Below the pieces are notes generated by a model that worked only from the letters and a program-made list of their open reading frames with translations, was not told the DNA's origin and searched no databases. The position numbers and the translations under genes are program-made. Positions 6,610 through 41,963 of a stretch of DNA of 64,000 nucleotides are shown one piece after another. Location: assembly GCF_000214665.1 (NCBI RefSeq), contig NC_015572.1, forward strand, positions 2,852,001-2,916,000, written 5' to 3'. This DNA is from Methylomonas methanica MC09 (GTDB lineage: Bacteria; Pseudomonadota; Gammaproteobacteria; Methylococcales; Methylomonadaceae). How positions within the stretch are numbered: position 1 is the first letter of the stretch; every line of letters starts with the position of its first letter.

Positions 6610-6642
6610 AGTGTTGTTGTGTAAAATGACCCGGACAACGCC

Positions 6643-7738: not shown

Positions 7739-7854
7739 ATGGGCAGCTACAGTTAGATTTTTACCTGTAAAAGCATCCAGGGATGTAAACAATCTATTTC
7801 GTTAAAAGGCCTGCAGAACTATGTTAGGCACACGCCGTTTTTTTGCTTTTCCCG

Positions 7855-7860
7855 TATAAT
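7855..7860 (+). promoter_or_regulatory. Candidate -10 element of the aminotransferase gene
   Basis: A perfect TATAAT lies 36 bp before the ATG at 7897. No convincing -35 hexamer is found 16-18 bp upstream, so activator dependence or a weak promoter is possible. Confidence 0.45.
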
Positions 7861-7896
7861 ATTCCCCAATTTTCAAGCCGACTCCACCGAGGAAAT

Positions 7897-9078
7897 ATGA
7901 GTATCACACTGTCTAACCGCGTCAAAGCCGTCAAACCGTCACCGACTTTAGCCATTACTGCCCGTGCTGCCGCGATGCGCGCTGCCGGAAAGGATATTAT
8001 CGGGTTGGGCGCAGGCGAACCCGACTTCGACACGCCGGATCATATCAAAGCGTCGGCGGTCAAGGCTCTGGATAATGGTTTCACCAAGTACACCGCGGTT
8101 GACGGCATCCCCAGCTTGAAAAAAGCCATTGCGCAAAAATTCAAAAACGACAACGGCTTGGATTACCAGTCCAAGCAAATTTTGGTCTCCAGCGGCGGCA
8201 AACAAAGTTTTTACAATCTGGCGCAAGCGCTGTTAAACCCCGGCGATGAGGTTATCATTCCCGCACCTTACTGGGTTTCCTATCCGGACATGGTGTTATT
8301 GGCGGACGGCGTACCGGTGATTGTGGAAGCCGGCCAATCGCAAAACTTCAAGATCACCCCGGCGCAATTACGTGCGGCGATTACCGACAAGACCCGCTTG
8401 TTCGTCATCAACAGCCCATCCAACCCGACCGGCGCGGCCTACAGCCTGGACGAACTGAAAGCGCTGGGCGAAGTATTGCAGGACTTCCCCGAGGTATTGA
8501 TCGCCACCGACGATATGTACGAACATATCCTGTGGAACAAAGGCGAATTCGTTAACATCCTGAATGCACGTCCGGATTTTTACCCCCGCACCATCGTCTT
8601 GAACGGTGTATCCAAGGCCTATTCCATGACCGGCTGGCGGATCGGCTATTGCGCCGGCCCTGCTAACTTGATTGAAGCCATGTGCATTATTCAGTCGCAA
8701 AGCACTTCCAACCCCACCTCCATCTCGCAAGTCGCCGCTGAAACCGCCCTCACCGGCGATCAAAGCTGTATCGACACCATGATGGTAGAGTTCAAAAAAC
8801 GCCACGACTTCGTGGTGGCGGAATTGAATAACATAGACGGCATAGAATGCCTGGCCACCGACGGCACTTTTTACGTGTTCCCGAACGTGGAAAAGCTGAT
8901 CAACAAATTAGAGGGCATAGACGACGACTTACAGTTTGCGGAATATTTGATCGAAAAAGCCGGTGTCGCACTGGTGCCGGGCTCCGCGTTCGGTTGCCCC
9001 GGCCACATCCGTATTTCCATTGCCACCAGCATGGCTAATCTGGAAAACGCGTTGGCCCGGATAAAACAGGCCGTTTAA
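7897..9078 (+). CDS. Class I/II PLP aminotransferase (aspartate aminotransferase Ib type)
   Basis: Cytosolic PLP enzyme, probably aspartate:2-oxoglutarate transaminase of the AspC/AspB Ib subgroup. The 393-residue sequence opens 'MSITLSNRVKAVKPSPTLAI', typical of this subgroup. 'LGAGEPDFDTP' is the substrate-binding region, 'NSPSNPTGA' (172-180) is the PLP-contacting Asn motif, and the Schiff-base Lys is K240 in 'NGVSKAYSMTGWRIGY', with the downstream Arg. The start at 7897 was chosen because homology begins there and AGGAAAT precedes it. A longer in-frame start at 7843 would include the promoter -10. It is a single-gene unit closed by a terminator. Prephenate aminotransferase activity, known for some Ib enzymes, cannot be excluded. 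Confidence 0.92.
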   Translation: MSITLSNRVKAVKPSPTLAITARAAAMRAAGKDIIGLGAGEPDFDTPDHIKASAVKALDNGFTKYTAVDGIPSLKKAIAQKFKNDNGLDYQSKQILVSSGGKQSFYNLAQALLNPGDEVIIPAPYWVSYPDMVLLADGVPVIVEAGQSQNFKITPAQLRAAITDKTRLFVINSPSNPTGAAYSLDELKALGEVLQDFPEVLIATDDMYEHILWNKGEFVNILNARPDFYPRTIVLNGVSKAYSMTGWRIGYCAGPANLIEAMCIIQSQSTSNPTSISQVAAETALTGDQSCIDTMMVEFKKRHDFVVAELNNIDGIECLATDGTFYVFPNVEKLINKLEGIDDDLQFAEYLIEKAGVALVPGSAFGCPGHIRISIATSMANLENALARIKQAV

Positions 9079-9093
9079 GCCGGCTACTTTACC

Positions 9094-9131
9094 AAAAACC
9101 CGCAAGCGCTACGTTAGCCTCGCGGGTTTTT
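9094..9131. terminator. Rho-independent terminator after the aminotransferase, probably bidirectional
   Basis: Inverted repeat AAAAACCCGC (9094-9103) / GCGGGTTTTT (9122-9131) with an 18-nt loop. The T-run follows the stem on the plus strand, and A-runs give T-runs on the minus strand. It can therefore also end the NYN gene transcript that points towards it. Confidence 0.85.
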
Positions 9132-9158
9132 ATGCCGACTTTACGGTTTTTTTACGCG

Positions 9159-9632
9159 TTAAATCAACAAACCTTCCTCTATCGGCACATAGCGATCGGC
9201 AGCCTGTATCAATGCTTGAGCGGTCAAAGCGGCCACACCATAGACTTCGGAATTGACTTGGTAACGTTCGCGGGCGCGTTCCAGCAACAACTGAAAATCG
9301 CCGTCTCCCGACAATAAAATGACCGTATCGACCTGCTCGGCCATTTCCAGCACATCCAAGGTAATCCCTACATCCCAATCGCCTTTCGCCGATCCGTCGC
9401 TGCGCTGGATGTAAGGTTTGAGCTTGACCTGAAAACCGATGTCCTTGAGGATTTGTTGAAAACCGCGCTGCCTGGTATCGCCTCTTTCAATCGCATAGGC
9501 ATAAGCGGCTACAACTTGGCGACCGGCAGTGGCTTGTTGCCAAAAAGCACTATAGTTAAAATGTTTTTGGTAGCGATGCCTGCAGGTGTAATAGATATTT
9601 TGCACATCGGCAAAAATCGCTACCTTTTGCAT
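9159..9632 (-). CDS. NYN-domain (LabA/DUF88-type) putative RNase
   Basis: A 157-residue NYN domain of the LabA-like subgroup, a PIN-like fold with acidic metal-binding residues expected to act on RNA. 'VAIFADVQNIYY' carries the first Asp and the N-x-Y signature, 'KGDWDVGITLDV' the middle acidic cluster, and 'DTVILLSGDGDFQLLL' the S-G-D-x-D-F motif. All acidic positions expected for catalysis are visible. The ATG at 9632 was chosen because an upstream extension would run through ppnP. The start lies 5 nt after the ppnP stop, so the two are coupled. The natural substrate of LabA-like NYN proteins is not established. Confidence 0.85.
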   Translation of the reverse strand: MQKVAIFADVQNIYYTCRHRYQKHFNYSAFWQQATAGRQVVAAYAYAIERGDTRQRGFQQILKDIGFQVKLKPYIQRSDGSAKGDWDVGITLDVLEMAEQVDTVILLSGDGDFQLLLERARERYQVNSEVYGVAALTAQALIQAADRYVPIEEGLLI

Positions 9633-9637
9633 AGCGG

Positions 9638-9949
9638 TTATTTCAAAAACGAGCAGCAGTAATCGCTGGGGGTTTTGACCTTCATCGTGAATGCCGCATT
9701 TCCCGGAACATTGAACGCTTCGCCACCTTTTACGGTTTGCCAGTCGCAACCGGGTAATTGCACATCCAGCTCGCCAGCCAGGATTTCCATCAACTCCGGA
9801 TCCGCGGTATTGAAGGTATATTCGCCGGGCTGCATGAATCCCAGGGTTTTTTTGGTACCGTCGGCAAACATAATGGTACGGCTGTTTACTTTGCCGTCGA
9901 AATATACGTTGGCTTGTTTGACGATGGTGACGTTTTGAAATTCTGACAT
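9638..9949 (-). CDS. ppnP: Pyrimidine/purine nucleoside phosphorylase PpnP
   Basis: Small cupin-fold nucleoside phosphorylase (formerly DUF1255) releasing bases and (deoxy)ribose-1-phosphate from a wide range of nucleosides. The full-length 103-residue product shows the family pattern '[11 protein letters not shown]', '[14 protein letters not shown]' and '[13 protein letters not shown]', with '[12 protein letters not shown]' near the end. It is followed 5 nt downstream by the NYN nuclease gene, an arrangement that could tie RNA decay products to nucleoside salvage (inference). Confidence 0.95.
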
Positions 9950-21087: not shown

Positions 21088-21891
21088 TTATTGGCGCAAG
21101 GCTTCAGTCAATTCCTGTATATCCTGCATCACCCACGTCGGGCCATAGTCCAGCGCTTGCATATCGCTTTCGCGCGAAATACCCGACAAAACCAACACGC
21201 TGCGGATACCCGTTTGCACCGCGCCCAGAATATCGGTATCCAGTCTATCGCCAATTGCAATCACTCGATCGGCGGGCACCGATAGCAATGTTAGAGCCTG
21301 CTGATAAATAATAGGCGCGGGTTTGCCGATCGTGGTGGGCGTAACCCCCGTGGCGGCGGCAAGGGCTGCCAAAGTTGCGCCATTGCCGGGTAAAAAACCG
21401 CGTTCGCTGGGCAGCGTGACATCGCCGTTACTGCCGTAAAACCCTGCGCCCGCCTGAATATGCAGCGCGGCCATACATAACTTTTCCCAAGTCAGGGTTT
21501 TATCCAAACCGCTGACTACCAGTTGTACGGCTTCCTCATCATGTTCGCTCGCCAATATAAAGCCCTTGTCCAGTAACGGCTGTCTCAAGCCGGCGCTGCC
21601 GATTACATAAACCCGCGTCTCGGAGGGACTATAGCGTTCCGACAGATATATAGCCGTGGCCATGCCGGACGTCAACACTTCCTGAATGCCGATGTCTACC
21701 TGCATATTCGCTAATTTTGCGACATATTGCTCGGCGGTAATACTGGCATTGTTGGTGGCCAATACAAACGGCAGTTTCAATTCTCTTAGCGTAGCGAAAA
21801 ATGCCGTCAGTCCCGGCAGGGCCTGATCGCCGTGCCACAGTACGCCATCCATGTCGATAATGAGGCCGCCAATATCGTTAAAACCTTGCAT
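21088..21891 (-). CDS. HAD-IIA family sugar/polyol phosphatase (NagD/PGP-like)
   Basis: A HAD hydrolase of 267 residues. Motif I is 'LIIDMDGVLWHGD', motif II 'VLATNNAS', and motif IV is 'IAIGDRLDTDILGAVQTGI', with the C2a cap between them that defines the NagD/phosphoglycolate/glycerol-1-phosphatase group. 'GKPAPIIYQQAL' carries the motif III Lys. The start at 21891 was chosen because homology begins there; an extra 25 residues to 21966 show no family signal. The gene leads into dhaK with a 16-bp gap. This suggests a triose or glycerol phosphate as substrate (inference from context). Confidence 0.88.
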   Translation of the reverse strand: MQGFNDIGGLIIDMDGVLWHGDQALPGLTAFFATLRELKLPFVLATNNASITAEQYVAKLANMQVDIGIQEVLTSGMATAIYLSERYSPSETRVYVIGSAGLRQPLLDKGFILASEHDEEAVQLVVSGLDKTLTWEKLCMAALHIQAGAGFYGSNGDVTLPSERGFLPGNGATLAALAAATGVTPTTIGKPAPIIYQQALTLLSVPADRVIAIGDRLDTDILGAVQTGIRSVLVLSGISRESDMQALDYGPTWVMQDIQELTEALRQ

Positions 21892-22069
21892 GATGATTCT
21901 TAGTAAACATTTATGTGGGCTAAACAGAATTGCATAAACACCCTGGCCTGTCCAGCCAACCGGCACCCGCTCGAGGGAAACGACGGCGTTAAAGATTGAT
22001 TTGACGAGGTTTTTGCTTAAATCAACGCAACGGCAACGACAAAGCCGCGCTGCCTGAGGTCTTTTGTAG

Positions 22070-22098
22070 TTGACTAAACGGCAATAACCCTGTTTAAT
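22070..22098 (+). promoter_or_regulatory. tRNA-Phe promoter
   Basis: TTGACT (22070-22075) and TTTAAT (22093-22098) are spaced by 17 bp, each a 5/6 consensus match. A GC-rich discriminator (GCGCGG) follows, as expected for a stringently controlled stable RNA gene. Transcription would start about 10 nt before the tRNA. Confidence 0.85.
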
Positions 22099-22114
22099 GC
22101 GCGGCTCTTGACGA

Positions 22115-22190
<76 letters not shown>

Positions 22191-22523
22191 CCTTAAAAAC
22201 CTTCCCAAGCGCTTCTCTTCGTTAGCTAAATTGCCACTATCCCGCTTAGTTACTATGCCGATTGACTAATTGGCGGCAAAATTAAGCACCTACAAGCCCT
22301 ATCTATATTTCTGGCGCCATTAGATATATCAAGACTGTCAAAAACAACGCGTTTAATGGCAAACAATATGTCCGCACAGTTTAAATTTTTGCTGTATTGA
22401 CACGCTGCAAATTAAACACCCAACCTAGTAACTAATTTTTTGTGATGTACGTAGCAAATTAACCGATAGCGACTACACTGTATTGCAGTTGTTTTAATTG
22501 GCATTCTTCAATGGGGGGCAGTC
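22191..22523. other. Intergenic region between tRNA-Phe and autotransporter gene
   Basis: These 333 bp are AT-rich and hold no credible ORF, RNA or strong terminator. A GGGGGG ribosome-binding site lies 6 nt before the next gene's ATG. Possible promoter hexamers near 22457-22485 are too weak to call. Confidence 0.6.
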
Positions 22524-23795
22524 ATGAATGGAGGCTTAAAACAAAAAAACACTCTGCGAAATGGAACCGCTAGAGACAAACGGCTTTCATCGCGAATCGA
22601 TAAAGTTTCTTTTACTTCATTTGCCGTTCTTGCCACGGCTTTGATGGGCCAGACTGTTGAGGCTCAGACTTTTAGTGAAGCGAGCACTGCAGAACTTAAT
22701 CGTATTTGTCGGCAAGATTTTACTTATAACTCTACTGACCAACTTGGCGTAATTTGCGGACAGTTACAAGCAGGCGGCGTTACTGCAGGATCGGGTATCG
22801 GCAGTCAGTCGCAGCCTAGTTCATTGCTTATCTCTCAACAACAATTAAAAGACGAACAAACCAAAAAAGAACGAAAAAAAAGACCGCCGGCGTCGGCCGA
22901 CGTGATTGCCGCACAATGGGGCAAATTCAGCACTTTTTTAACGGCCGGAGCCACGACGCTACGCCATTATCAAAACCCCTTTGAAGACGGTTATAACGCA
23001 TCCATCCCGGCGGTAACGGTAGGTGGCGGTTATTCCGTGTTAAATAATCTGGAAGTGGGGTTAGCCTTTAATTACGCTAATGCAATGGGTAATTACAATG
23101 CCGGCGGCGGATTCGATAGTAATTCATACACGCCGCTGCTGTATGTCAACTATCTGCCTTTTGACGGGGCTTTTGCCAACCTCGCTCTGAGTTATACCCG
23201 GCGGAATCAATCCATAGACCGATTCGCTGTTGCTGGAACAAACGGCTTAACCAATAACACAACGGTTATTTCAAGGCTTACTACCGGAAACTTCAACGCC
23301 AATCAATATACGGTTAATTTTTTAAGCGGCTACGACTTTGCGATTGACAATATCACGTTTGGTCCACGGGTGGGTGTCGATGTCCGGCAATGGGAAATAA
23401 ACAGTTATCACGAATCCTCAAGTACCGGCTTGGAGTTGCGCTATAACGATCAGCACCAAACCTCCTTACAAACTACCCTTGGTGTGTTCGCCTCATCCGC
23501 CCATAGTTTTTCTTTCGGCGTCTTAATTCCGCAAATCAACGTTGCCTGGGTTCATGAACATGCTAATGATTCGCGCATCATTAATGCGCATTTCATTCAG
23601 GCGACCGACTCAACGACTGGCCCAGGATTTTTCTTTCAAACCGAAAACCCAGCCCGCGACTGGGCTTTGATCGATGTAGGGACCTCACTACTGGTGCAAA
23701 ATGGCATACAGGCATTTGCCAACTTTACCACCGTACAGGGCAACAGCAACTTTGAAAGCTATGGCGGCAATGTGGGTGTAAGATTGGAGTGGTAA
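22524..23795 (+). CDS. Autotransporter-type outer-membrane beta-barrel protein with short passenger
   Basis: A 423-residue exported protein. After a 30-residue basic leader, a hydrophobic segment ends near 'MGQTVEAQT', giving an unusually long signal peptide as in many autotransporters. The passenger is only about 100 residues, with two Cys ('RICRQDFTY', 'LGVICGQL') and a charged linker 'DEQTKKERKKRP'. From 'WGKFSTFLTAGATTL' onwards there are about twelve amphipathic strands ending in the C-terminal aromatic signature 'GGNVGVRLEW'. It is likely to sit in the outer membrane. The role is unknown; the passenger is too short for a classic adhesin or protease. Confidence 0.8.
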   Translation: MNGGLKQKNTLRNGTARDKRLSSRIDKVSFTSFAVLATALMGQTVEAQTFSEASTAELNRICRQDFTYNSTDQLGVICGQLQAGGVTAGSGIGSQSQPSSLLISQQQLKDEQTKKERKKRPPASADVIAAQWGKFSTFLTAGATTLRHYQNPFEDGYNASIPAVTVGGGYSVLNNLEVGLAFNYANAMGNYNAGGGFDSNSYTPLLYVNYLPFDGAFANLALSYTRRNQSIDRFAVAGTNGLTNNTTVISRLTTGNFNANQYTVNFLSGYDFAIDNITFGPRVGVDVRQWEINSYHESSSTGLELRYNDQHQTSLQTTLGVFASSAHSFSFGVLIPQINVAWVHEHANDSRIINAHFIQATDSTTGPGFFFQTENPARDWALIDVGTSLLVQNGIQAFANFTTVQGNSNFESYGGNVGVRLEW

Positions 23796-23849
23796 AAATC
23801 AGCTTTTGGATAGCGATGCGGCTGCCATTTTTGTTGGCAATAGTAAAAC

Positions 23850-24707
23850 TTATTCGCCCACATCGTCCAAAATGTTTGCCCATAGCCGTTCCCAACAACA
23901 TACATGATCGTAATCGTCTATAACGATCAAATTGGAACCTAGCTGTTTGGCTGCATTCACCATCAATGCCGGCGGCACGATGTCGTCCTTGCCGCCGGCA
24001 AAATGGTACTGCTTGATCGAAGGATCCAGTGCCGGCAGCTCCGCCGGATTGAGCGAAGCGTTCAGATCATCGTTTTCGGTATAAGCAGCCCAGGCTGACA
24101 GATCGAGGTTTGCCGCGACGGTCACCACAGCAACCGTTTCCGGTAAACGCGAAGCAAGCAGCACGGCCAACGTCCCGCCACCACTGTGGCCAATCAAGGC
24201 TATACGCCGATAACGCCCGCTGCGAAGCAAGTGTTTAATCACTTCGGCCAAGCTGACCACCACCGCCTCGCCGTATCGATGGCTTAACCAAAAACGACTG
24301 GCGCAAGCATCCGTCGAGTGCATGCCGTGATAACACGGTCTCCCCACATAAGCCGAGGAAGCAGGGTCTAAACTCATCAGCTTTAATAGCAAAGCATTGC
24401 GCGGCGTAGGATCATCCGTTGGTCTACCGGCAATCCAAGGTGTCCCGTCGCCGTCGATGTAAACGTGCAGGGTTGCCGATGAATTGCCCGATTTGCGATA
24501 CACCACGTGTTGAAAGTTGCTGCCGCGCATGACTTCACGTTCTAAGTTCAGCAACTTGGCTTGACGGGCGAAGTCTTCCGCTACCGTGCTGCATCCCGTC
24601 CCCAAAAATACCGCGAAAAAACCAATAGCCAGGCTTTTCCGGAAAAAGCATCGGCGGCATAAGAACATCTTCAACGGAAAAAAGCCGTTGTAAACCATCG
24701 GCCGCAT
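23850..24707 (-). CDS. Exported alpha/beta hydrolase, probable lipoprotein
   Basis: A 285-residue alpha/beta hydrolase behind a hydrophobic segment that ends in the lipobox-like 'FLGTGCS' (Cys39). The nucleophile elbow is 'GHSGGG' with Ser175. Asp241/242 in 'GGKDDIVPP' and His268 in 'YDHVCCW' complete a plausible triad. 'YIDGDGTPW' (83-91) probably forms the oxyanion loop. The ATG at 24707 directly abuts the stop codon of the nSTAND gene, so the two are coupled; M14 is an alternative start. Position as third gene behind SIR2-TIR and nSTAND genes suggests a part in the same system, either as effector or as an envelope component (inference). The substrate cannot be told. Confidence 0.85.
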   Translation of the reverse strand: MRPMVYNGFFPLKMFLCRRCFFRKSLAIGFFAVFLGTGCSTVAEDFARQAKLLNLEREVMRGSNFQHVVYRKSGNSSATLHVYIDGDGTPWIAGRPTDDPTPRNALLLKLMSLDPASSAYVGRPCYHGMHSTDACASRFWLSHRYGEAVVVSLAEVIKHLLRSGRYRRIALIGHSGGGTLAVLLASRLPETVAVVTVAANLDLSAWAAYTENDDLNASLNPAELPALDPSIKQYHFAGGKDDIVPPALMVNAAKQLGSNLIVIDDYDHVCCWERLWANILDDVGE

Positions 24708-27700
24708 TTAAGGCGACTCTCCGGTGGGGTCGGCCATTCGCCATTCAGCACAGGTTAGATAAGGCGGATTGCGTCCCAGATAATCGCGCAGCTCATCGGC
24801 CGTTAAGTTGCGCCCGTCTTTACGACAAAGCTCAGCAAACGCCTGTGCCGGGTCAGCGGCGTGCAATTGCACCTGGCCGTTAGCCAACGCGGACGCCAAC
24901 AGCGAGGGTTCGCCCGGGCTGAACGCCACGCCCCACACTTCGGCCGCATGCGTTATCCGATCTATCTCCACGCTGGTCGAAGTCTGAATGATTCTGCTTA
25001 TGCCATCCATGCCGGCAGTGGCCAAAAATTTGCCATTGGCACTAAAAGCAACACTAGTCACCTCGCCACCTTGTTTTACCACGGCGACTAAATCGACTGA
25101 GTCGAGGTTGGTCAATTTTGCAGTATTGTCCATGCTACCGGTCGCCAACAGTTTGCCGTCCGGACTGAAAGCCACGCTAAGTACGCTGCCGGCATGCACA
25201 ATCCGGGACTTTTCTGCTCCGGAAACTAAATCAAACAGTCTTGCCGTTCCGTCTTCGCTGGCGGCAGCCAAATAACGCCCATCCGGGCTAAAGGCGACTT
25301 GCGTAGCCGCTGCGGCGAGTGTGATGGTCTGCGATAATTGCCACGTGCGGGTATCAAATACGGATACCGTGCCATCCTTTCCGGCAACCGCCAATTGTTG
25401 GCCGTCAAAGCTAAACGCCACAAACCTGATTTCATCGACACCGTCGATTGTCTTTTCCACGCGCCCGGTAGCGGTATTCAAGACCCTGGCGGTTTTGTCC
25501 AGGCTGGCGGTCGCTAACCATCGACTATCCGGACTGAATGCGATGCCCCTAACCTCGTCCGCGTGATGCACAGCGGCGATTTCCTCACCCTTTGAAAAAT
25601 CGATCAGTTTGGCAGTATGGTCTTTGCTAAACGTCGCCATCAAGCGCCCGTCCGAACTGAAGGCCACGCCATACACGGTATCTGCATGTCGGAACGCCGA
25701 CAGTTGTTGGCCTGTTCGGACATCATAAACCGTCGCGGTGCGGTCCTGGCTTGCTGTCGCCAAATAACGCCCCTCCGGGTGAAATGCCAGGCCCATAACA
25801 CTGCGTTGCTGACGGATTCTTATATCGTCAGGGAATTGTTCGGTTTCGAACAGACGTACAGACTTGTCCATGCCAACAGTCGCCAGGAATCGGCTGTCCG
25901 GGGTGAAGACGATATTCCAAACCGCCCCAGCATGCGGGAGTTTCGTTATTGGCTGCCAAGTGGCCGTTTCTATCAGGCGGACGTTCCCATCCAAACTGGA
26001 AAAAGCCAGTAAGCGCGGGTTTGGGCTAAATCTGACGCTATATACATCGTCTCTACCGGTTAAGCGGGCGACTTCTTTACCTGAGGAAATTTCGGTGATT
26101 TTCACGGTGTCGTCGTCGCTGCCGGTCGCCAGCCAGCGGCTATCGGCACTGATATCCAGACTGTTCACGGCTTCGATATGCTCGATTCTTTGCAGTTCGT
26201 CGCCGGTCTCCGCATCGATAACATGCGCGAAATTATCCCGACTAACCGTTGCCAGGAATCGTCCATCTGCGCTGAAAATCACATGAGTCGCCTCTGCACC
26301 GTGTTTTACCCGAAATACTTCCCGGCCTGACGAGACGTCTATCAATCTGACGGATTTATCTGCACTGGCGACGGCCAGACGGCTACCGTCCGGGCTGAAG
26401 GCAATATTTGCAACCGGTCCGACCAGTTTAAACTGTCGCAGAGTCCGGCCGGTTGAAACGTCAATCAACTGAACGGTAGGGTCTGCCCCGGCTGCCGCCA
26501 GATAACGACCGTCCGGGCTAAACGCCACTGCAGTTACAGCGCCGTTCAGGATAGACGAAAATAAGATGTCATGACACGCGGTATCGATGACCCTGATCTG
26601 ATTGTCGTTTGAGCCGGTGGCGATAAACCGCTCATCGGGGCTAAAGGCTATAGCGTTGATCCAGCCGTCATGTTTCACGGTAAACAACGCGTTACCGGTT
26701 ACCGTGTTAAACACGCGTAATGTGCTGCCCTCGCCTCCGGCTGCCAGTAAGCCGCCTTTCGGACTGACACCGATGGCGCGGATAGGCTCTTTAAACGGTA
26801 TGCGATAATCAGGCAACATCCGCAGCAATTGATACGCCACCGAGGCAGCCGCTGCGTTTGCTTGAATACGCCACGACTCAATCGCCAACGCCGCCGCCCG
26901 TTCCACGATACTGTCGTTGGCTGCGGTATTGGCCAACAAGGCAGCCTGAGCCGCAAGTTTGCCGGACTGGGTAATATCGCGCGAACGCTTGGCATCCCAC
27001 CAATTCCACCACCCCCAGGCCGTCGTCAATAAAAATATCATCGCCAGTGCCAGGAAAACGGCGGTCCGGCGATTGGCCGCCTGCGCTCTAAGCTCCGCCT
27101 GCTTGCGCGCCTGCTCGTCCTGTCGTTGTTTCTCCAATACCTGACGTTGCTCCCGGTTCTTTCGCACCACGCCGGTCAGTACATCGTGGATCAGCTCAAC
27201 CCGCTTGCCGCCGTCTTGTTGCTCCCTGCGTAACACCAATAACCGTCGCTGTACCAGGACATCCAAGGCTTGCTTGGTAACCCCGGGCGTTTGCAGCGCG
27301 TTGTCATACGCTTCGCTATTGCGATACCCTGAAACGGTCAGCAACCTGTCTTCGACGAACTGGCGTAATTCCTCGGATTGATCTTGCAGGCAGCGCTGGT
27401 AGAACGCCTCCAGTATCAGATCCCGATTACTGTCGACCAGCTGCGACTCGATACGCGGCTGGCTGTTCTTGATTCGGAGTTCGTTCAATTCACGGCACAG
27501 CAGACTTAACAAGGCCGGCTCAATTTGCAACGCATCCAGCGCCTGCTGCATATCGCTGCCCGGCTTGCCGGCCACCAAACGGACGATGCTTTCCGCCACC
27601 TCGCGTTTGACTAAGCGGCCCTGCGTCTGATCAACCACGGCCAGAGCTTGCGTCCCGTTCATGGGTCGCAAACGCATGCGGTTAAAGATAACCGATGGCA

Positions 27701-28391
27701 TCCGCGGTCGCAGCTCTTCCAGGTTTGCCAGATAGTCTTCCCTTACGCTCAAAATTAGCTTAAAACGATGGTGACTAAAATCAAATTGTTTAGCCAATCC
27801 GGAATCGGTCTCCAAACGCACTTTCACCGAGTCGGGACAACGGCCCTCAATCAGATCCGCTAACTCGGTTATAAACTGTTCCGATTCGTTCAACCGTTTT
27901 AGGCTTTCGCGGCCCAGCGTAAAAATTTCCTCAAATTGATCGAAACACAGCAACGGCATGATGATGCGATTCTGGGTGTCCCAAAATTCAGCCTGTTTGC
28001 GGTGGAAATATTCCCAGAGCGTGTCGCTGTCGGTTGGCACCGACTCCTCTATGGCATGCGCTTTTACCTGTTTCATCAAGGCTGCGAATACCTGCTCACG
28101 AAGCGTCAAGGCGTCATCTGAAAAATTCAGCCGGATAGCGACGGGAAGTACTTGATTCTGGCGTATCAGCGGAAACAAACCCGCTTGTAACAAGGAACTT
28201 TTGCCCAAACCCGAAACGCCAAACAGTACGGTGAGCCGCTCGCGGTTGACCAATCGATAAAGTCGGCTTATGTCCTCGCTCCGCCCCTTGAAAAACTGCG
28301 CCTCCTGCTCCCTGAATGCAGCCAGACCAGGCCAGGGACGCTCTGTATCAACAAGGAAAATTTCCGGCAGGATATCGGCTGAGGTTTGCAT
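24708..28391 (-). CDS. nSTAND1-type NTPase with one membrane helix and 16 WD40 repeats
   Basis: A 1227-residue signal-transduction NTPase. The N-terminus has the nSTAND1 entry motif 'RPWPGLAAFREQEAQFFKGR' (18-37). Walker A GVSGLGKS is at 58-65, Walker B 'PLLCFDQFEE' at 145-154, a sensor 'LILSVREDYL' at 212-221, and a winged-helix 'ELIHDVL' at 399-405. A basic, charged coil (410-442) precedes a single hydrophobic helix (about 443-462). A helical bridge and about 16 WD40 repeats of the 'VAFSPDGRYLA' type then fill 534-1190, enough for two beta propellers. The ATG at 28391 was chosen because homology starts there. The extended ORF to 28679 overlaps the upstream gene and has no family match. It starts 5 nt after the SIR2-TIR gene. 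Proteins of this class sense a trigger and activate partner effectors. Confidence 0.88.
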   Translation of the reverse strand: MQTSADILPEIFLVDTERPWPGLAAFREQEAQFFKGRSEDISRLYRLVNRERLTVLFGVSGLGKSSLLQAGLFPLIRQNQVLPVAIRLNFSDDALTLREQVFAALMKQVKAHAIEESVPTDSDTLWEYFHRKQAEFWDTQNRIIMPLLCFDQFEEIFTLGRESLKRLNESEQFITELADLIEGRCPDSVKVRLETDSGLAKQFDFSHHRFKLILSVREDYLANLEELRPRMPSVIFNRMRLRPMNGTQALAVVDQTQGRLVKREVAESIVRLVAGKPGSDMQQALDALQIEPALLSLLCRELNELRIKNSQPRIESQLVDSNRDLILEAFYQRCLQDQSEELRQFVEDRLLTVSGYRNSEAYDNALQTPGVTKQALDVLVQRRLLVLRREQQDGGKRVELIHDVLTGVVRKNREQRQVLEKQRQDEQARKQAELRAQAANRRTAVFLALAMIFLLTTAWGWWNWWDAKRSRDITQSGKLAAQAALLANTAANDSIVERAAALAIESWRIQANAAAASVAYQLLRMLPDYRIPFKEPIRAIGVSPKGGLLAAGGEGSTLRVFNTVTGNALFTVKHDGWINAIAFSPDERFIATGSNDNQIRVIDTACHDILFSSILNGAVTAVAFSPDGRYLAAAGADPTVQLIDVSTGRTLRQFKLVGPVANIAFSPDGSRLAVASADKSVRLIDVSSGREVFRVKHGAEATHVIFSADGRFLATVSRDNFAHVIDAETGDELQRIEHIEAVNSLDISADSRWLATGSDDDTVKITEISSGKEVARLTGRDDVYSVRFSPNPRLLAFSSLDGNVRLIETATWQPITKLPHAGAVWNIVFTPDSRFLATVGMDKSVRLFETEQFPDDIRIRQQRSVMGLAFHPEGRYLATASQDRTATVYDVRTGQQLSAFRHADTVYGVAFSSDGRLMATFSKDHTAKLIDFSKGEEIAAVHHADEVRGIAFSPDSRWLATASLDKTARVLNTATGRVEKTIDGVDEIRFVAFSFDGQQLAVAGKDGTVSVFDTRTWQLSQTITLAAAATQVAFSPDGRYLAAASEDGTARLFDLVSGAEKSRIVHAGSVLSVAFSPDGKLLATGSMDNTAKLTNLDSVDLVAVVKQGGEVTSVAFSANGKFLATAGMDGISRIIQTSTSVEIDRITHAAEVWGVAFSPGEPSLLASALANGQVQLHAADPAQAFAELCRKDGRNLTADELRDYLGRNPPYLTCAEWRMADPTGESP

Positions 28392-28396
28392 ATCGG

Positions 28397-29836
28397 CTAT
28401 TCCATGCTGCGCCGGTAAGCCCGCTGCAGGTGCTTGATCTCTGTCAAAAACGCCGCACTGCATTGGCCGTTTTGCAGTCGCTCCCAATGCAATTCGCGAA
28501 TATATTCGTCGAGATTCGGATCGTCCGGCGGCGTATCGTCTATGACTAACGGTATGATGAATCGCCGGCTGTCCGGATAAAAATCCGCACACTCTTCTGC
28601 GTACTTCCATTCGAACCTGAAAAACCGCCGTTCTTGCGTCAACGTATTCCGGGAAATAATCGGCACAAATAGCGAACATTGCTCGATGTTGGTTTTGATA
28701 CGGCTTTTAAATTTATCGCCAACCCGAAGCGCTCCGGAATCTTTATCAAACCAGACTTCGATACCGGCTTTTTCGAAGGCATTCTTGATGGACGATACTG
28801 CCGACTCGTCTTCGTGCGCGTAACTCAGAAATACCGCGCCGCTGCGCATCCGCTCGCTCCCGCCGTCATCGACAGCGTCCTGATCCGGTTTCGTGTGGTT
28901 GTCGCTGGACGGTATAGCTTCAACCACCGACTGGGCAGGCTCGGGACAGTTGGCGTCGCCGGGGTGCTTGGCCGTCCACCTTCGATACAACTCATCGACA
29001 AATTCGACCGCTTGCAACGGAAAAATTTTTGTGCGGGTACTGAAATGCAGCAGAAACTCGGCCAAGTTTATTTCTTTGCTGACTTGGTCGCCGACCAAAA
29101 AATCGGTTTTTTCCTTGGATATGATCAAGCGGTGCCGGTTACCGATACGCACGAAAAAGCGCCCCAACCAATCGTACAATTGGCAACCGACCATCATCAG
29201 GTCTTGCTTGACTAAGACATCGAACAATAGCTTAGGACGGGTATGCTCCGATTGCAGTTCGTGCATGAACTCCAGAATATCTTCATCGGTAACCGCGTAG
29301 TCGGGCGCGGCCGTTAGCTTCCCGAATAGATGGAACACCGTAGTACCCGATAATTGATCCACCTCGTCGGGCAGGTCTTTGGTTGATCCGGGATAAAACT
29401 CGATAACCTCCGTGTTACTCTTTCCCGCATAGCGTACTTGGTTTAGCGTCTTAACCAAATAAGGATCAAAACAGGTCGTCACAAATAACTTTAATGGTCT
29501 GATTTTGGCGAGCTTAACCAACGTTTCCGGCATTTTATCCAGCGATAAATCAGTCAGAACCAGCTTTACGGTCGGATAGAGGTCTTCCCGCTGCCCGCCC
29601 TGAGCAAGATAACGGCAGGCGACGGTATTCAATGTGTCAGCAGGCTTGGCATCGATTCCCAGGCGTTTTGCCAGCTGCTCCGCCAAATACATATACAAAG
29701 AAACCGGCCTGCCGCCGATTTCGACCACTACTAATTCCGGGCCGATCACGGGAATAACCCGACCTTCCTCTATGAAAACAATGAGCTGCTCCCAAAGGCG
29801 CTCAATATGTACTTCTGTCATCCGCAAGCCCGTCAT
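28397..29836 (-). CDS. SIR2-like and TIR domain protein, predicted NADase effector
   Basis: A 479-residue two-domain protein. Residues 10-285 follow the SIR2-like pattern seen in bacterial defence proteins: 'VIPVIGPELV' (loop 32-35), 'LKLFVTTCFDPYL' (115-127), 'VFHLFGKL' with catalytic-type His169, and 'LLFDVLVKQDLMMVGCQLYD' near the end. The Asn normally found in the T-x-N-x-D motif is Cys122. A polar linker (290-332) leads to a TIR domain (333-479) with 'VFLSYAHEDE', 'IEVWFDKDSGALRVGD' and 'FRFEWKYAEECADF', where Glu409 occupies the catalytic NADase position. It is first in an operon with the nSTAND protein. M1 or M6 (29821) could be the start. Predicted to act in the cytosol on NAD+. Confidence 0.85.
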   Translation of the reverse strand: MTGLRMTEVHIERLWEQLIVFIEEGRVIPVIGPELVVVEIGGRPVSLYMYLAEQLAKRLGIDAKPADTLNTVACRYLAQGGQREDLYPTVKLVLTDLSLDKMPETLVKLAKIRPLKLFVTTCFDPYLVKTLNQVRYAGKSNTEVIEFYPGSTKDLPDEVDQLSGTTVFHLFGKLTAAPDYAVTDEDILEFMHELQSEHTRPKLLFDVLVKQDLMMVGCQLYDWLGRFFVRIGNRHRLIISKEKTDFLVGDQVSKEINLAEFLLHFSTRTKIFPLQAVEFVDELYRRWTAKHPGDANCPEPAQSVVEAIPSSDNHTKPDQDAVDDGGSERMRSGAVFLSYAHEDESAVSSIKNAFEKAGIEVWFDKDSGALRVGDKFKSRIKTNIEQCSLFVPIISRNTLTQERRFFRFEWKYAEECADFYPDSRRFIIPLVIDDTPPDDPNLDEYIRELHWERLQNGQCSAAFLTEIKHLQRAYRRSME

Positions 29837-29865
29837 GTCAGGTTAAACGCAGGAATACTCAGCCC

Positions 29866-29895
29866 TTATAGTAGCCCCATGACGCCACTAATCAA
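29866..29895 (-). promoter_or_regulatory. Candidate promoter of the SIR2-TIR/nSTAND operon
   Basis: On the minus strand TTGATT (29895-29890) is followed 18 bp later by CTATAA (29871-29866), about 30 nt upstream of the first ATG. The match is moderate. The operon is otherwise separated from the Nudix gene by 120 bp without a clear terminator. Confidence 0.35.
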
Positions 29896-29956
29896 GCCAT
29901 TAATAGCGCTTCGGAACACCGGAATAGTGGCGAAAAGACGATCCGAGCCTGCCGGG

Positions 29957-30394
29957 TTATAGTCGCAACGGCGTCACCCGGCCGCTAGCCAGAAATTCTT
30001 GATAATCTGCCAACACCTGCGCATGGTCGAAAGCCAAGGTCGCCGGCAAAGTGTCGAAAGTAAACAAACCGGCGTTTTTGGCATCATCCGCAGCTTGCGG
30101 CATGCCGTGCGCTTGCCCGGCATACACGGCCGTAACGGTATGATTGCGCGGGTCGCGGGCGGGATTGGAATAAATTCCCAACAACGCCGTTAGTTCAACA
30201 TCCAGCCCGGTTTCCTCTTTGGCTTCACGAATAGCCGCGTGTTCCACGGTTTCGCCAACGTCGACGAAACCGCCCGGCACCGCCCACCCGTAGGGAGGAA
30301 AAGCGCGTTCTATCAATACGAAAGGGTGTTCCGGCACATCGATCAATTGAATCAAGATATCGGCGGCGAGCAACGGCGTAATTGGCTTGGCCAT
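29957..30394 (-). CDS. Nudix hydrolase (ADP-ribose pyrophosphatase-like)
   Basis: A 145-residue Nudix enzyme with the box '[20 protein letters not shown]' followed by 'ETGLDV' (42-67), all catalytic Glu present. The flanks '[14 protein letters not shown]', '[11 protein letters not shown]' and '[17 protein letters not shown]' match a common group often annotated as ADP-ribose pyrophosphatase or 8-oxo-dGTPase. It lies 120 bp upstream of the SIR2-TIR gene on the same strand. ADP-ribose is a typical product of SIR2 and TIR NADases, so a functional link is possible. The group also occurs widely as a housekeeping gene. Confidence 0.88.
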
Positions 30395-35778: not shown

Positions 35779-36495
35779 CGGCGCTGCCTCATTGCGTCTG
35801 AAATTTGAAGATAGGCCGAAAAAAAGGCTTGGTTTCGAGAAAAACCTGTTGTCTTGATGAAAAAAGGGTCGATTATTGAAATTTTTGACCAATCTTGAAA
35901 ATTACTGTCGCTCAAAACGGCAGTTTTTCAGAGACTCTTTGAGGGCATTGGAAAACCGCTTTCGTCGAGGAAAAACAAACTCAATTGGCCAGCTTCATCG
36001 GCTTTTTGAAAGTACTTTTTCCTGTGCGGCTTCGAATCGTTCAGGATCGAATTCTTTTCAATGACAAGCGCGCTCAGATAAAAACGAGGCCTTGCTGCTT
36101 CAAGTGCCTGGATAGCGAGTCGAGACTGAATGGCCGGGCATCCCGATGGATTTCTCGCAACTGGCGGTCGATTTCGGCCAAGGTAAATGCTCGGCTAACT
36201 CATGGAAAGTAATGCATTCTGCTTCGTTAAATATAAATGGTGGCAACTGGTCGGCCAAGATAAGCTATAAACAACCTCAACTTAGCCTAGGCTTTTAAAT
36301 TAGTTATATGTTATTACGTAGATCTATGTGGTTTTTTATATATCACATCTAAATATCCATTTTGATCTATCTAAACAACTGAAAACGCAACATATATAAT
36401 GGAAAATCAATAAAAATTTCATTTCATCTCCATAATGTGCAAGACTATGCTAAACAGCATAAATATAAAAATAATTCAGCTAGAAACGAAAAGCC
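35779..36495. other. Non-coding scar between IS relic and AT-rich transporter gene
   Basis: About 700 bp without a credible gene. The first 450 bp has the base composition of the host and probably continues the decayed IS. From about 36290 the DNA becomes strongly AT-rich and merges with the leader of the transporter gene. Short ORFs here (35876-36064, 35985-36212) show no recognisable domains. Confidence 0.6.
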
Positions 36496-37764
36496 ATGGC
36501 AAAAGCATTCATTAAAACAAACAAAGAACTATTTATATTATCATGGGGTTATGCTGGCAGCATATCCCTAGCAGCTACAGCTATAAACTTAATATTATTT
36601 AAATATTATGGGTATACCGAAGCAGAGCTATCAATTATATTGAATGTATATGTACTTGCATTCACCATTGGAACCACATATACAAACCTCCATGTAAGCA
36701 AAAGGCTTTCTTATGTGCATGCAATCATATTTTTATTAAGCGGATCAAGCATAGTATACACACTACACACAATAATAATAGAGACAAATCTGCCGCACTA
36801 TTTTTATATATTAAATAGATTCATGGAAGGATTATTTAACGGTGGAATAATTAGCATAACCTCACACATACTAAAAACGAAAACAATATTTAATACAAAC
36901 AATGGGTTTATACATAGCATAAACTCATCAGCTCATTTTTTTATAAAATTATCTATTCCACTGGCATCCACTACCTTACTTATTATACCGGGCTTCGAGG
37001 CATCCATATATCTATTCACCTCTAGCATTTTAATACTATTAGCGCTTTATTTTTATAAATCAAAGAATTTATTCAGTAACAAATATCAAAAATATATGTT
37101 AATAGCCAAGAAAAGACAAAAACTTACAAATCAGTCAATCAAGGAAAGCTTTGTGAGCATATTAATAAACTTATTAAACGGAGACAATAAAACATATAAA
37201 TCCCATTATATATTATCAAACTTATTCCATAACTCATTAAGACCATTTTTTGATTTATACTTAGGGCTATTAATGATTTCAGTTTATAATTATAACTTAG
37301 TAGAAACCACTTTTTTTGCGTCATGCGTAGCACTTGGACAGTCAATGCAGCTATTCAGTGGAAAAATAGCGGATCGCTATTTTCTATACTATTATAACTT
37401 AGCATTGATAAGTTTATTTTCATTATTCTTTTACACTCTTGCATTTGAAAAACAATTATTTGAGACCCCAGGAATTGCAACAATATTGTTTTTTATATTG
37501 GGCATTGGGAGAAGCTTGTACGCTAACTATGCATACAAAATTACAAATAACCTTATAAAACTTGGCATGCCGGTAAACCATACATCATTTTTAAGCTTCT
37601 TGCTAGCAGGATTTTCAAATTACTTTGCATATTTAATGCTTTCATGGTTATTATATAATGGATTTAGTTTGAACGACCTAGTGTATATACCTATACTAAT
37701 TATTATAGGTATAATAATACTATCAATATCAATTGATAGAGTTTGTTTTAAGAAAAACATTTAA
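36496..37764 (+). CDS. MFS-like 12-helix transporter, horizontally acquired
   Basis: A 422-residue integral membrane protein with about 12 hydrophobic segments. A short basic stretch follows the first half ('YKSKNLFSNKYQKYMLIAKK'), as in MFS proteins with a 6+6 layout. No sharp MFS signature motif is visible, so the substrate is unknown. The codon choice is strikingly different from all neighbours: Ile is mostly ATA, Leu mostly TTA, and G+C is near 30% by eye against about 50% around it. The gene is bracketed by transposase relics on both sides. It is intact, with ATG start and normal stop, so it may be functional. Confidence 0.75.
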   Translation: MAKAFIKTNKELFILSWGYAGSISLAATAINLILFKYYGYTEAELSIILNVYVLAFTIGTTYTNLHVSKRLSYVHAIIFLLSGSSIVYTLHTIIIETNLPHYFYILNRFMEGLFNGGIISITSHILKTKTIFNTNNGFIHSINSSAHFFIKLSIPLASTTLLIIPGFEASIYLFTSSILILLALYFYKSKNLFSNKYQKYMLIAKKRQKLTNQSIKESFVSILINLLNGDNKTYKSHYILSNLFHNSLRPFFDLYLGLLMISVYNYNLVETTFFASCVALGQSMQLFSGKIADRYFLYYYNLALISLFSLFFYTLAFEKQLFETPGIATILFFILGIGRSLYANYAYKITNNLIKLGMPVNHTSFLSFLLAGFSNYFAYLMLSWLLYNGFSLNDLVYIPILIIIGIIILSISIDRVCFKKNI

Positions 37765-37854
37765 TTTGAAATCCATTCGTAAATTGACCCTTAATCCGTA
37801 TTCCTGCGATACAATTTCTCTATAATATATAGATAAATAAAGGATAACGATTAA

Positions 37855-38081
37855 TTGAATACCCCCCACACCGAACATCAGTCACTTCAAACTGAAAGCT
37901 TCCAAAAGGAATTCACCTCGTATGCCGGGCTGGCCTTGGTTGGGCAATGCCTGGAGTTCCTCAATATTGAAGTGGTTGTCGATGGACGGATACCGGTTTC
38001 TCAGGGCATTAAAACGTCCGACGTGGTGAAATCGGTGACAGACCCGCTCAGCATCGGCCAGAGTGACTTCGAGGCGTTTGA
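37855..38081 (+). pseudogene. IS1380-type transposase N-terminal fragment
   Basis: A TTG-started frame reads 'FTSYAGLALVGQCLEFLN' and 'IKTSDVVKSVTDPLSIGQ', then 'SDFEAFD'. This matches the beginning of IS1380-family transposases (T-S-Y-x-G-L ... D-V-x-K ... G-x-S-D-F-x-A). Similarity stops after 'FEAFD', where a different element joins. No catalytic residues remain. Confidence 0.65.
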
Positions 38082-40304: not shown

Positions 40305-41963
40305 ATGGCAGAAAATGAACGCATTCTGATTGGTCACTTGGTGGAAGTACGCGGCAACGGTATGGAAGCTCGTATCATCGAAGAGCACTCGACGGCTGCG
40401 CCGATTATCAAAGTAGGTGACGAAGAAATTTTAGCCGGTAACTTAGGTTCCTATGTCATGATTCGGCAATCCGACATTGGTGTGTTAGCGTTGGTCTTTA
40501 AGATGTGGGAACGCGACCGCTTCGACAGTTTGGGTAACCGGTCATCCGACCGCTTCATTTCCTTGATACCGGTTGGCGAACTCAGCGATAACAACACCTT
40601 TGTACGCGGCGTGCGCCATTACCCTACCCCTGGCGCAAACGTTTATGCTGTCGGCCTCAACGAAATCAATGCCATTTTTGTAAAATTTCGCGAGTATCAG
40701 TTTTTCATCGGCCAGCTGGCTTCGCATAAGGACTACCATTTAAGCTTGGACCCGCGTGCTTTGTTCGGCCGCCACTTTGCCATTCTCGGCCAATCCGGCT
40801 CCGGTAAATCCTGGACCGTAACCAGTTTAATTCAGCATACTATCCAGGCCATGCCGAAAACGCATTTAGTGATGCTGGATTTACACGGCGAATATTGCTG
40901 GAAAAATGATAATGGCCAAATCGAATCCGCATTTCCACGCGAAATGGTGAATTATGTCGATGCCTTGGAACTGGAAATGCCGTATTGGATGATGTCTTAT
41001 GCCGAGTTAGTGGATCTGTTCATCGACAAGGATGACCGTGGCGCCTCCATGCAAATGGCTTTCATGCGCGAGGTGTTGCAACAATTAAAACGTAAGGAAG
41101 CCAAGGAAATCGGTTTGGGTGCGGTATCCATCGATACGCCGATTTATTTTTCGCTGGCGGAAATGTATATGCAATTCAAAGCCGCCAACGAAGAGCGCAA
41201 GGATTTCGGCAAGACTCACGGCGCCTTGTTCGGCCAGTTCGATCAGTTTCTGGTGAGAATGCAAAGTCGTTTCAACGACGTCCGTTACGACTTTTTGCTA
41301 AAACCCAAAAAACGCACCAGTTCGGCCAGCATGGCGGATTTATTGAGGCAATTCATCGGTTTGGGCAAGCAGAAATCCAATATTACCGTGGTTGATTTAA
41401 GCTCGGTACCCACCGACGTCAGGCCAGCCGTGTCGGCGCAGGTAGGCCGGTTAGCCTACGAATTTAACTATTGGAATCCAAAGCGGCGCGAATTCCCCAT
41501 TACACTGATCTGCGAGGAAGCGCACGCCTATATTCCACGCGAAAAAGGCGGTCAGTTCGAGGGCACCAAAAAAATGATGGAACGGATTGCCAAGGAAGGC
41601 CGTAAATACGGTGTATCCATTGGTGTCGTGAGTCAAAGGCCGACCGAGTTATCGGAAACCATGTTGGCGCAATGCAGTACATTCATCTGCCTTAGAACCA
41701 CCAACCCGGACGACCAGGAGTATATCCGTGGCTTGGTTCCCGAAGCCGAAGGCGACTTAACCGACATTCTGACATCTTTAGGGCGTGGTGAGGCATTGGT
41801 ATTAGGCGAAGCGGCACCACTACCCACTCGGGTGCAAATCTATCGTCCCAATCCGGAACCAAAAAGTAACGATGTGGATTATTTTACCGGCTGGCGGGAA
41901 GGCCCGGATGACCTGGATGTGGAAGGCATCGTCAACAACTGGCGCACGCAAACCCGCCAGTAA
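40305..41963 (+). CDS. HerA-like DNA translocase/helicase ATPase, orphan
   Basis: A 552-residue hexameric-type ATPase of the HerA/FtsK group. An N-terminal HAS-barrel (about 5-140) precedes the P-loop 'LGQSGSGKSWTV' (161-172). 'HLVMLDLHGEYCW' follows. The Walker B region is 'ITLICEEAHAYIPREKGG', and 'GVSIGVVSQRPTELSETMLA' is the sensor/arginine-finger part with the Q-R-P motif typical of HerA. HerA usually works with NurA nuclease or, in defence loci, with SIR2 or DUF4297 partners, but none is adjacent: folP is divergent and nqrM convergent. It may act in end resection or as a lone translocase (inference). Confidence 0.9.
   Translation: MAENERILIGHLVEVRGNGMEARIIEEHSTAAPIIKVGDEEILAGNLGSYVMIRQSDIGVLALVFKMWERDRFDSLGNRSSDRFISLIPVGELSDNNTFVRGVRHYPTPGANVYAVGLNEINAIFVKFREYQFFIGQLASHKDYHLSLDPRALFGRHFAILGQSGSGKSWTVTSLIQHTIQAMPKTHLVMLDLHGEYCWKNDNGQIESAFPREMVNYVDALELEMPYWMMSYAELVDLFIDKDDRGASMQMAFMREVLQQLKRKEAKEIGLGAVSIDTPIYFSLAEMYMQFKAANEERKDFGKTHGALFGQFDQFLVRMQSRFNDVRYDFLLKPKKRTSSASMADLLRQFIGLGKQKSNITVVDLSSVPTDVRPAVSAQVGRLAYEFNYWNPKRREFPITLICEEAHAYIPREKGGQFEGTKKMMERIAKEGRKYGVSIGVVSQRPTELSETMLAQCSTFICLRTTNPDDQEYIRGLVPEAEGDLTDILTSLGRGEALVLGEAAPLPTRVQIYRPNPEPKSNDVDYFTGWREGPDDLDVEGIVNNWRTQTRQ

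Follow-up and report, generated by a model that had tools for sequence, protein, structure and literature searches.

A four-gene cassette joining a SIR2-TIR protein and an nSTAND-WD40 protein to two predicted envelope proteins in Methylomonas methanica MC09, a candidate conflict system

Here we describe a four-gene cassette in a 64,000-nucleotide stretch of the Methylomonas methanica MC09 chromosome (the window, positions 2852001-2916000 of the 5.05 Mb single-contig genome). Three intact open reading frames (ORFs) on the minus strand encode a protein with SIR2-like and TIR domains (P0001), an nSTAND NTPase with a WD40 sensor (P0002) and an alpha/beta hydrolase (P0003), and a fourth gene on the opposite strand encodes an outer-membrane barrel. 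An initial annotation, made from the sequence alone, had grouped the first three genes as one unit. Its ORFs, strands and domain types (SIR2/TIR, nSTAND-WD40, hydrolase) are confirmed by ORF calls and Pfam, and its genes and their order are borne out; its boundary is not, since the convergent barrel gene (22524-23795, plus strand) was missed. The features of the cassette, in window coordinates, are:

28397-29836, minus strand: likely pseudo-SIR2-TIR effector gene, 479 amino acids (aa; P0001), from ORF, Pfam, fold and alignment
28967-29794, minus strand: SIR2-like domain of P0001, ∼residues 15-290, with C122 and F171 at the Asn and His positions, from alignment; fold matches ThsA, KomC, Avs5 and DSR2
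28466-28834, minus strand: TIR domain of P0001, residues 335-457, with Glu409, from Pfam and alignment
24708-28391, minus strand: gene for an nSTAND1 NTPase, predicted transmembrane segment and WD40 sensor, 1227 aa (P0002), from ORF, Pfam and hydropathy
28197-28220, minus strand: Walker A motif GVSGLGKS of P0002, residues 58-65, from sequence
27009-27065, minus strand: predicted transmembrane segment of P0002, residues 443-461, between NTPase and WD40, from hydropathy only
23850-24707, minus strand: predicted alpha/beta hydrolase lipoprotein gene, 285 aa (P0003), possible start at 24668, from Pfam, alignment and model
22524-23795, plus strand: autotransporter beta-domain outer-membrane protein gene, 423 aa, the fourth member of the cassette, from Pfam and order-wide comparison

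The 5-nt gap between the P0001 and P0002 genes given by the initial annotation is real, and its 0-nt gap between P0002 and P0003 holds for the most upstream ATG of P0003, which directly abuts the P0002 stop. The signal sequence of P0003 reads as if it began near the second in-frame Met (codon 14), so that the true gap may be ∼39 nt. The barrel gene (PF03797, 4.4e-42) lies 54 bp beyond the end of the hydrolase gene, and because the two are convergent they do not form one transcript. Three genomes share the gene order SIR2-TIR, nSTAND-WD40, hydrolase, convergent barrel, namely the window genome (G000), a Methylomonas relative (G008, locus L061) and a Methylococcaceae metagenome-assembled genome (MAG; G084, locus L062). 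The two further genomes keep the arrangement with open frames at 59-82% identity, and no internal stop occurs in the 12 cassette genes compared. A broken hydrolase gene in G008 was considered and rejected, as the TGA in question precedes the gene's own start and a 277-aa ORF is open. Pairwise ratios of nonsynonymous to synonymous divergence (dN/dS) between the window and G008 are 0.116 for SIR2-TIR, 0.172 for nSTAND, 0.210 for the hydrolase and 0.089 for the barrel; in the comparison with L062, synonymous sites are saturated or close to it. Judged by sequence comparison, the three-gene arrangement exceeds chance, given its conservation in two genomes and the dN/dS of 0.09-0.21 against the nearest. 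Between the window and G008, dS is 1.13-1.34 for the cassette genes (n=4) and 0.62-0.87 for flanking control genes (n=3), so that the cassette is more diverged than its own surroundings.

P0001 matches TIR_2 (1.8e-19) and, weakly, SIR2_2 (1.5e-5; 25.5 bits against a cut-off of 24.5) in Pfam. The best fold matches of its AlphaFold model (predicted local distance difference test, pLDDT, 83; predicted template modelling score, pTM, 0.63) are ThsA, KomC, Avs5 and DSR2. In a profile alignment to the KomC-type chain 9v0g, the Asn and His of the chain stand opposite Cys122 and Phe171 of P0001; chain 9v12, titled as a KomBC mutant, has Ala at exactly those positions in the printed stretch, and His159 of the chain corresponds by our own count to KomC His146, an H146N entry being among the fold matches. 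Across a 32-row alignment of SIR2-TIR proteins (which leaves out loci L064, L068, L069, L084 and L088, where no single ORF was picked), the residue at position 122 is T, S or C and that at 171 F, L or Y, with N or H in 0/32 rows. The initial annotation had taken the SIR2 domain for a second NAD+-consuming effector with His169 as catalytic residue. Neither proposal survives the alignment: the catalytic Asn and His are absent from all 32 copies, and His169, which does not occupy the sirtuin His position, is H in 8 rows, Y in 19 and Q in 5 and was rejected as catalytic on its replacement in 24/32. The SIR2 half is likely a pseudoenzyme. The sirtuin motifs of Avs5 are given in a section of one report as GAGXS, TTNXD and HG, the Asn of TTN being essential there and NG able to replace HG (PMC12931631). 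This tolerance lends some room to the idea of a SIR2 half that works with an unusual motif and of NAD+ consumption by both domains of P0001. We nevertheless consider this very improbable, as the TTNxD Asn is also lost and 32/32 rows have F, L or Y where HG would stand.

Sequence comparison matches the TIR half to SARM1 and to bacterial TIR proteins of known structure, and Glu409, the predicted catalytic TIR Glu as placed by motif and alignment, is E in 32/32 rows, which makes the TIR domain the probable NADase of P0001. The SIR2 fold itself is kept, with Gly32 in all 31 rows that have the position and Gly172 and Asp186 in 32/32. Together with the model's match to ThsA, described in part of a report as an effector controlled by TIR products (PMC11204291), this retention would suit a scheme in which the TIR domain makes a nucleotide signal rather than plainly depleting NAD+, the dead SIR2 half binding NAD+ or the product as a regulator. 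We regard such signalling as quite unlikely, since Pfam finds neither SLOG nor any other receptor domain in the cassette, which also lacks a second effector on which such a signal could act.

P0002 is assigned to the STAND NTPases by its nSTAND1 match (PF20703, 3.9e-31), its Walker A and Walker B motifs (GVSGLGKS and LLCFDQFE) and a C-terminal repeat sensor of WD40 repeats. A sensor that spans the membrane, as proposed in the initial annotation, is probable from the hydrophobic segment at residues 443-461. Such a segment follows the NTPase in 12/12 nSTAND ORFs tested, including those of L061 and L062; P0002 has one and L064 three, and the first begins at ORF residue 410-515 (starts not curated). 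The segment argues for a WD40 sensor outside the cytoplasmic membrane, and a periplasmic WD40 would suit both the Cys pair near the C-terminus of P0002 (C1189, C1214) and C125 and C135 of the hydrolase, which are invariant in its alignment.

For P0003, the exported alpha/beta hydrolase lipoprotein of the initial annotation is upheld by residues: besides the Abhydrolase_1 match (4.9e-8) and the signal sequence, the lipobox Cys39 and the Ser/Asp/His triad (S175, D241, H268) are invariant in 31/31 aligned members, consistent with a serine hydrolase with predicted lipidation. Its model (pLDDT 91) has a generic esterase-type fold, and as the Foldseek matches are generic esterases and acyl-peptidases, no substrate can be assigned.

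The distribution of the first two genes was followed through a single scan of genome contigs with an alignment of six SIR2-TIR proteins, in which nSTAND was not used. It gave 32 loci, in Methylococcales, Rubrivivax, Thauera, Paraburkholderia, Nitrosomonas, one MAG each of Bryobacterales and Verrucomicrobia, Bacteroides and Prevotella; some are near copies (L067/L068, L083/L085), so that independent events are fewer than 32. An nSTAND match begins at most 600 bp behind the SIR2-TIR match in 31/31 loci where the contig continues for 300 bp or more downstream (that of L073 ends 169 bp after the match). The 27 loci with ORF calls for both genes all have them as separate ORFs, without a single fusion. 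The initial annotation had proposed co-occurrence of its three genes as a check. The SIR2-TIR/nSTAND pair passes it at every locus with room, while among 301 genomes of the order five have a close SIR2-TIR protein and only three of these the hydrolase. Behind the pair, eight distant copies carry FGE-sulfatase-like genes (two, in Bacteroidales), TPR-S and patatin genes (two, L074 and L044), genes without a family (three) or a gene with only a DUF4309 match below its cut-off (one). TPR-S and patatin domains are also known from conflict systems. FGE domains in conflict systems are described in part of PMC10907252.

Three details may be added on these and other copies. The two Bacteroidales copies in which the third gene, after nSTAND, encodes an FGE-sulfatase-type protein are L080 and L083. 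The M. methanica genome holds a second, diverged SIR2-TIR/nSTAND-WD40 pair (L046, 1724001-1744000) with patatin and TPR-S genes downstream. In L059 (G007, 4903-9750), a SIR2-like gene is followed by an nSTAND gene interrupted by a transposase ORF (6787-7875).

The five close SIR2-TIR proteins of the order are those of G000, G008 (76% identity), G084 (67%), G232 (locus L063, 63%) and G195 (two pieces of 60% and 58%; 55% overall by blastp); the best match after these is at 40%. A hydrolase of at least 64% identity occurs only in G000, G008 and G084 (next best 47%), and a barrel of at least 62% in the same three (next best 37% among the matches listed, best by E-value). These three genomes also share a WD40 sensor that is ∼60% or more identical, whereas in G232 and G195 the WD40 part is 30-33% identical, and hydrolase and barrel are absent from the DNA examined. 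Because the two close-SIR2-TIR genomes without the envelope pair also have a different WD40 part, the pair tracks the sensor type, and the comparison, though of few genomes, is suggestive of a hydrolase and barrel that follow the sensor and not the effector. A 55% SIR2-TIR copy outside the 301 genomes (L064) has an nSTAND ORF without WD40 match and no hydrolase or barrel behind it.

The four cassette genes are the only ones of 53 window ORFs with a match (>60 residues) in L062, and have therefore moved as a unit. In L062 the cassette is flanked by haem-peroxidase, DyP-like, catalase-like and LuxR-type genes at one end and by genes of DnaJ and MerR type at the other, families that differ from the Nudix, histone-deacetylase-like and HAD genes flanking the cassette in the window. 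The hydrolase is thus tied to the pair, as the initial annotation had it, in three genomes, one of them with unrelated flanks. A narrower view would confine the system to the pseudo-SIR2-TIR and membrane nSTAND genes and treat hydrolase and barrel as a separate envelope pair that hitch-hikes. Both genes are absent from 30/32 SIR2-TIR loci (several contigs end early), being present in L061 and L062, and from 2/5 of the closest copies of the order; relatives of the hydrolase occur widely where the pair does not (105/301 genomes matched), and the barrel is on the opposite strand. We nevertheless consider a two-gene system unlikely, since the four genes stay joined in two unrelated chromosomal contexts and alone are common to window and L062, the presence of hydrolase and barrel goes with the type of WD40 sensor, and the cassette interval in the window has no other independent gene of at least 150 aa. 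Searches for carriage found no match among phages and, among plasmids, one distant match only (29.6%, a 2.56 Mb Paraburkholderia replicon).

Away from the pair, the hydrolase family is mostly partnered with caspases, which the initial annotation had not noticed when it joined the hydrolase to the other two genes. Of 42 hydrolase regions fetched, L154, L155 and L156 had no hydrolase ORF, and the other 39 gave 40 rows, L136 having a second, different hydrolase. Within 8 kb of the hydrolase, a C14 caspase is found in 32 of the 40 rows, a Ser/Thr kinase in 20 and an autotransporter in 18. Counted by genome with Pfam models, a C14 caspase lies within 5 kb of a hydrolase relative in 29/35 genomes (0.16 expected from caspases per genome; the misses are G027, G254, G195, G149, G199 and G172) and an autotransporter in 18/35 (0.22 expected). 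This count leaves out G029, G041, G047, G052, G055, G110 and G158 of the 42 genomes and takes from G000 the second hydrolase copy only, not the window copy; as 16/35 are Methylomonas, the genomes are not independent cases. Apart from the hydrolase, an autotransporter lies within 8 kb of 33/78 caspases (0.78 expected). In a 31-row tree with root not known, the window-type hydrolases form one clade (100/99).

The caspase-type hydrolase copy of M. methanica itself lies at 3815297. In L047 (3806001-3826000 of this genome), genes for a C14 caspase Sel1 lipoprotein, a hydrolase, a Ser/Thr kinase, an autotransporter and TssK/TssM/FHA-like proteins occur together, and parts of this combination recur across the order. 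From its gene content the stretch looks like an envelope signalling or death module; no description of such a module was found in the open PMC literature. In the part of Kaur et al. (2020, PMC7159879) covering caspase-type VMAP systems, these always have a neighbouring alpha/beta-hydrolase gene.

The cassette resembles several known systems in parts. Like Avs5 (AVAST type 5; SIR2-STAND), it combines a STAND NTPase with a SIR2-fold effector, and the SIR2 half of P0001 matches the Avs5 fold. In Avs5, nSTAND3, repeat sensor and active SIR2 form one protein, as a section of PMC12931631 has it. In contrast, the window and the 27 loci mentioned above have effector and sensor in separate ORFs, not in the single polypeptide of an Avs protein; the NTPase is nSTAND1 and probably membrane-spanning, and the SIR2 motifs are lost while TIR is kept (no row of the 32 has the TTNxD Asn and the His/Asn before Gly of an active SIR2 NADase). 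Thoeris (ThsA/ThsB) likewise uses SIR2 and TIR domains, and ThsA gives the best fold matches of P0001, but Thoeris places the two domains in two proteins, with SIR2 active, and has no STAND component. According to part of PMC11204291, ThsA is SIR2-SLOG; P0001 has no SLOG or macro domain by Pfam, the cassette has no separate ThsB, and only the TIR part matches ThsB models. The DUF4062 proteins of the Swarozyc/TEP1/APAF-1-like group are TIR-like NADases whose eukaryotic relatives adjoin a NACHT ATPase and, in several cases, WD40; bacterial Swarozyc is activated by the phage portal, and the portion of the report concerned makes no mention of an nSTAND1 partner, a membrane segment or a hydrolase (PMC13174449). 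Pfam gives only TIR_2 and SIR2_2 for P0001, and no DUF4062. The conflict systems of Kaur et al. share nSTAND1, TIR and a caspase with an alpha/beta-hydrolase as constant neighbour (parts of PMC7159879 and PMC8195603), and other copies of the pair adjoin TPR-S-patatin and FGE genes. They differ from the window in that here the hydrolase is a predicted lipoprotein beside an outer-membrane barrel; MoxR, vWA, VMAP and EAD are absent from the Pfam matches listed for the four cassette proteins (the best 25 of 62 for P0002). SIR2 does not occur in PMC7159879 and occurs once, as an effector domain, in PMC8195603. The Methylococcales loci with caspase lipoprotein, Ser/Thr kinase, hydrolase and autotransporter use the same hydrolase and barrel families as the window, with a caspase and often a kinase where the window has SIR2-TIR and nSTAND. 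No recognisable description of the gene set was found in the open PMC literature, where most subscription papers are absent. We take the set for a variant of the STAND/TIR conflict systems; by these comparisons it is none of Avs, Thoeris and Swarozyc, although its mode of action may well resemble that of Avs.

The sequence itself shows the gene content and integrity of the cassette, the loss of the SIR2 motifs, Walker A, the hydrophobic segment and the conserved TIR Glu, Cys39 and triad; we infer the topology, the trigger, the depletion of NAD+, a role in defence and any contact with hydrolase and barrel. We give about an even chance to a four-gene conflict cassette in which hydrolase and barrel are an envelope module coupled to a membrane STAND/TIR death switch, in place of a caspase. 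In keeping with STAND biology, a ligand would bind WD40, an ATP-driven oligomer would form and the TIR domains would cluster. In the cassette, soluble P0001 would carry the active TIR NADase on an inactive SIR2-like part serving as scaffold, binding or regulatory element, and P0002 would sit in the inner membrane with its NTPase in the cytosol and its WD40 sensor in the periplasm. The hydrolase lipoprotein and the outer-membrane barrel may present, modify or relay an envelope cue, such as phage adsorption or injection or envelope damage, to the window-type WD40 sensor. Upon triggering, the STAND protein would bind ATP and oligomerise, the TIR domains would be gathered and NAD+ consumed, leading to cell death or arrest. 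A sensing or relay role of hydrolase and barrel is favoured by their both following the sensor type, and their role is the least certain step of the mechanism. The envelope-monitoring, NAD+-depleting module of the initial annotation remains the best reading.

Several points weigh against a four-gene cassette. Only three cassettes are known, two of them at orthologous places in one genus, and hydrolase and barrel are missing from most SIR2-TIR loci, as given above; hydrolase and barrel genes, being convergent, are not co-transcribed; and in none of the 40 rows is an nSTAND or SIR2-TIR gene found within 8 kb of the hydrolase relatives. The P0002 segment is of modest hydropathy (1.81), and its flanking charges leave the orientation undecided. 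PADLOC 2023 gives TIR-part matches for P0001, WD40-region and weak NTPase-region matches for P0002 and none for P0003, and no model covers the pair.

The same predicted topology would serve a system that senses envelope stress, kin or competitors and kills or arrests the cell upon outer-membrane breach by toxins, predators or failed assembly, rather than one that defends against phages. Sensor, hydrolase and barrel all have a predicted place in the envelope, some genomes have Ser/Thr kinase and TssK/TssM/FHA-like genes next to related hydrolase/caspase loci, a setting of signalling genes, and PADLOC on 10 other window proteins matched only a lone HerA helicase (with a TPR cross-match). Components of the TIR and STAND kinds are characteristic of antiphage systems, the cassette is patchy, the same interval in G015 carries type I restriction-modification genes, and some distant copies adjoin patatin, TPR-S and FGE genes, so that we think this alternative to phage defence improbable.

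Returning to the four-gene conflict cassette, a bolder proposal, which we hold tentatively, makes hydrolase and barrel a front end at the outer membrane that can be joined to different executioners: the shared families would report envelope attack to an exported caspase, frequently accompanied by a Ser/Thr kinase, in the majority of the Methylococcales examined and, through a membrane-spanning STAND protein with periplasmic WD40, to a cytosolic TIR NADase here. If so, this would be a STAND immune receptor watching the outside of the cytoplasmic membrane. To our knowledge, characterised STAND defence proteins sense phage parts inside the cell; if the predicted topology holds, P0002 would sense on the outer side of the cytoplasmic membrane, either ahead of DNA entry or while it takes place. 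Hydrolase and barrel would be a defined partner set, linking bacterial caspase-type and TIR-type cell death via common envelope parts. Regardless of the envelope pair, a gene for a separate effector with a likely dead SIR2 part recurs immediately before a membrane nSTAND gene in Pseudomonadota, a Bryobacterales MAG and Bacteroidales, and this pair is unmodelled in PADLOC 2023.

The cassette occupies an interval that is variable in Methylomonas, as judged by the gene content of relatives:

21967-29956, no strand: variable interval from a HAD-type gene (21088-21966) to a Nudix gene (29957-30394)

Its cargo differs in each relative examined (including L188, L189 and L191). G008 has window-type Nudix and deacetylase-like neighbours on the SIR2-TIR side and a penicillin amidase gene beyond the barrel, the HAD gene being on a separate contig. 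G026 is collinear on both sides and carries a histidine kinase and two other ORFs in the interval, and G027 carries hypF, hypD and neighbouring ORFs (its Nudix gene was found at 83%, with an ORF in another frame over the same place in the ORF table). In G015, ArsA-type, low-molecular-weight-phosphatase-type and type I restriction genes follow Nudix, and the HAD gene is on another contig. The hydrolase as a fixed gene of this place was rejected, as G026, G027 and G015 (Nudix side) have neither hydrolase nor barrel there.

Elsewhere in the window, a HerA-type helicase gene lies at 40305-41963 (PADLOC HerA 1.7e-135, DUF87), just after two genes for a pterin-binding protein and a PLP-enzyme; no NurA or SIR2 partner was seen at that place. 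The stretch 36001-38000, which holds an MFS transporter gene, has 33% GC against 46-56% elsewhere and was possibly acquired.

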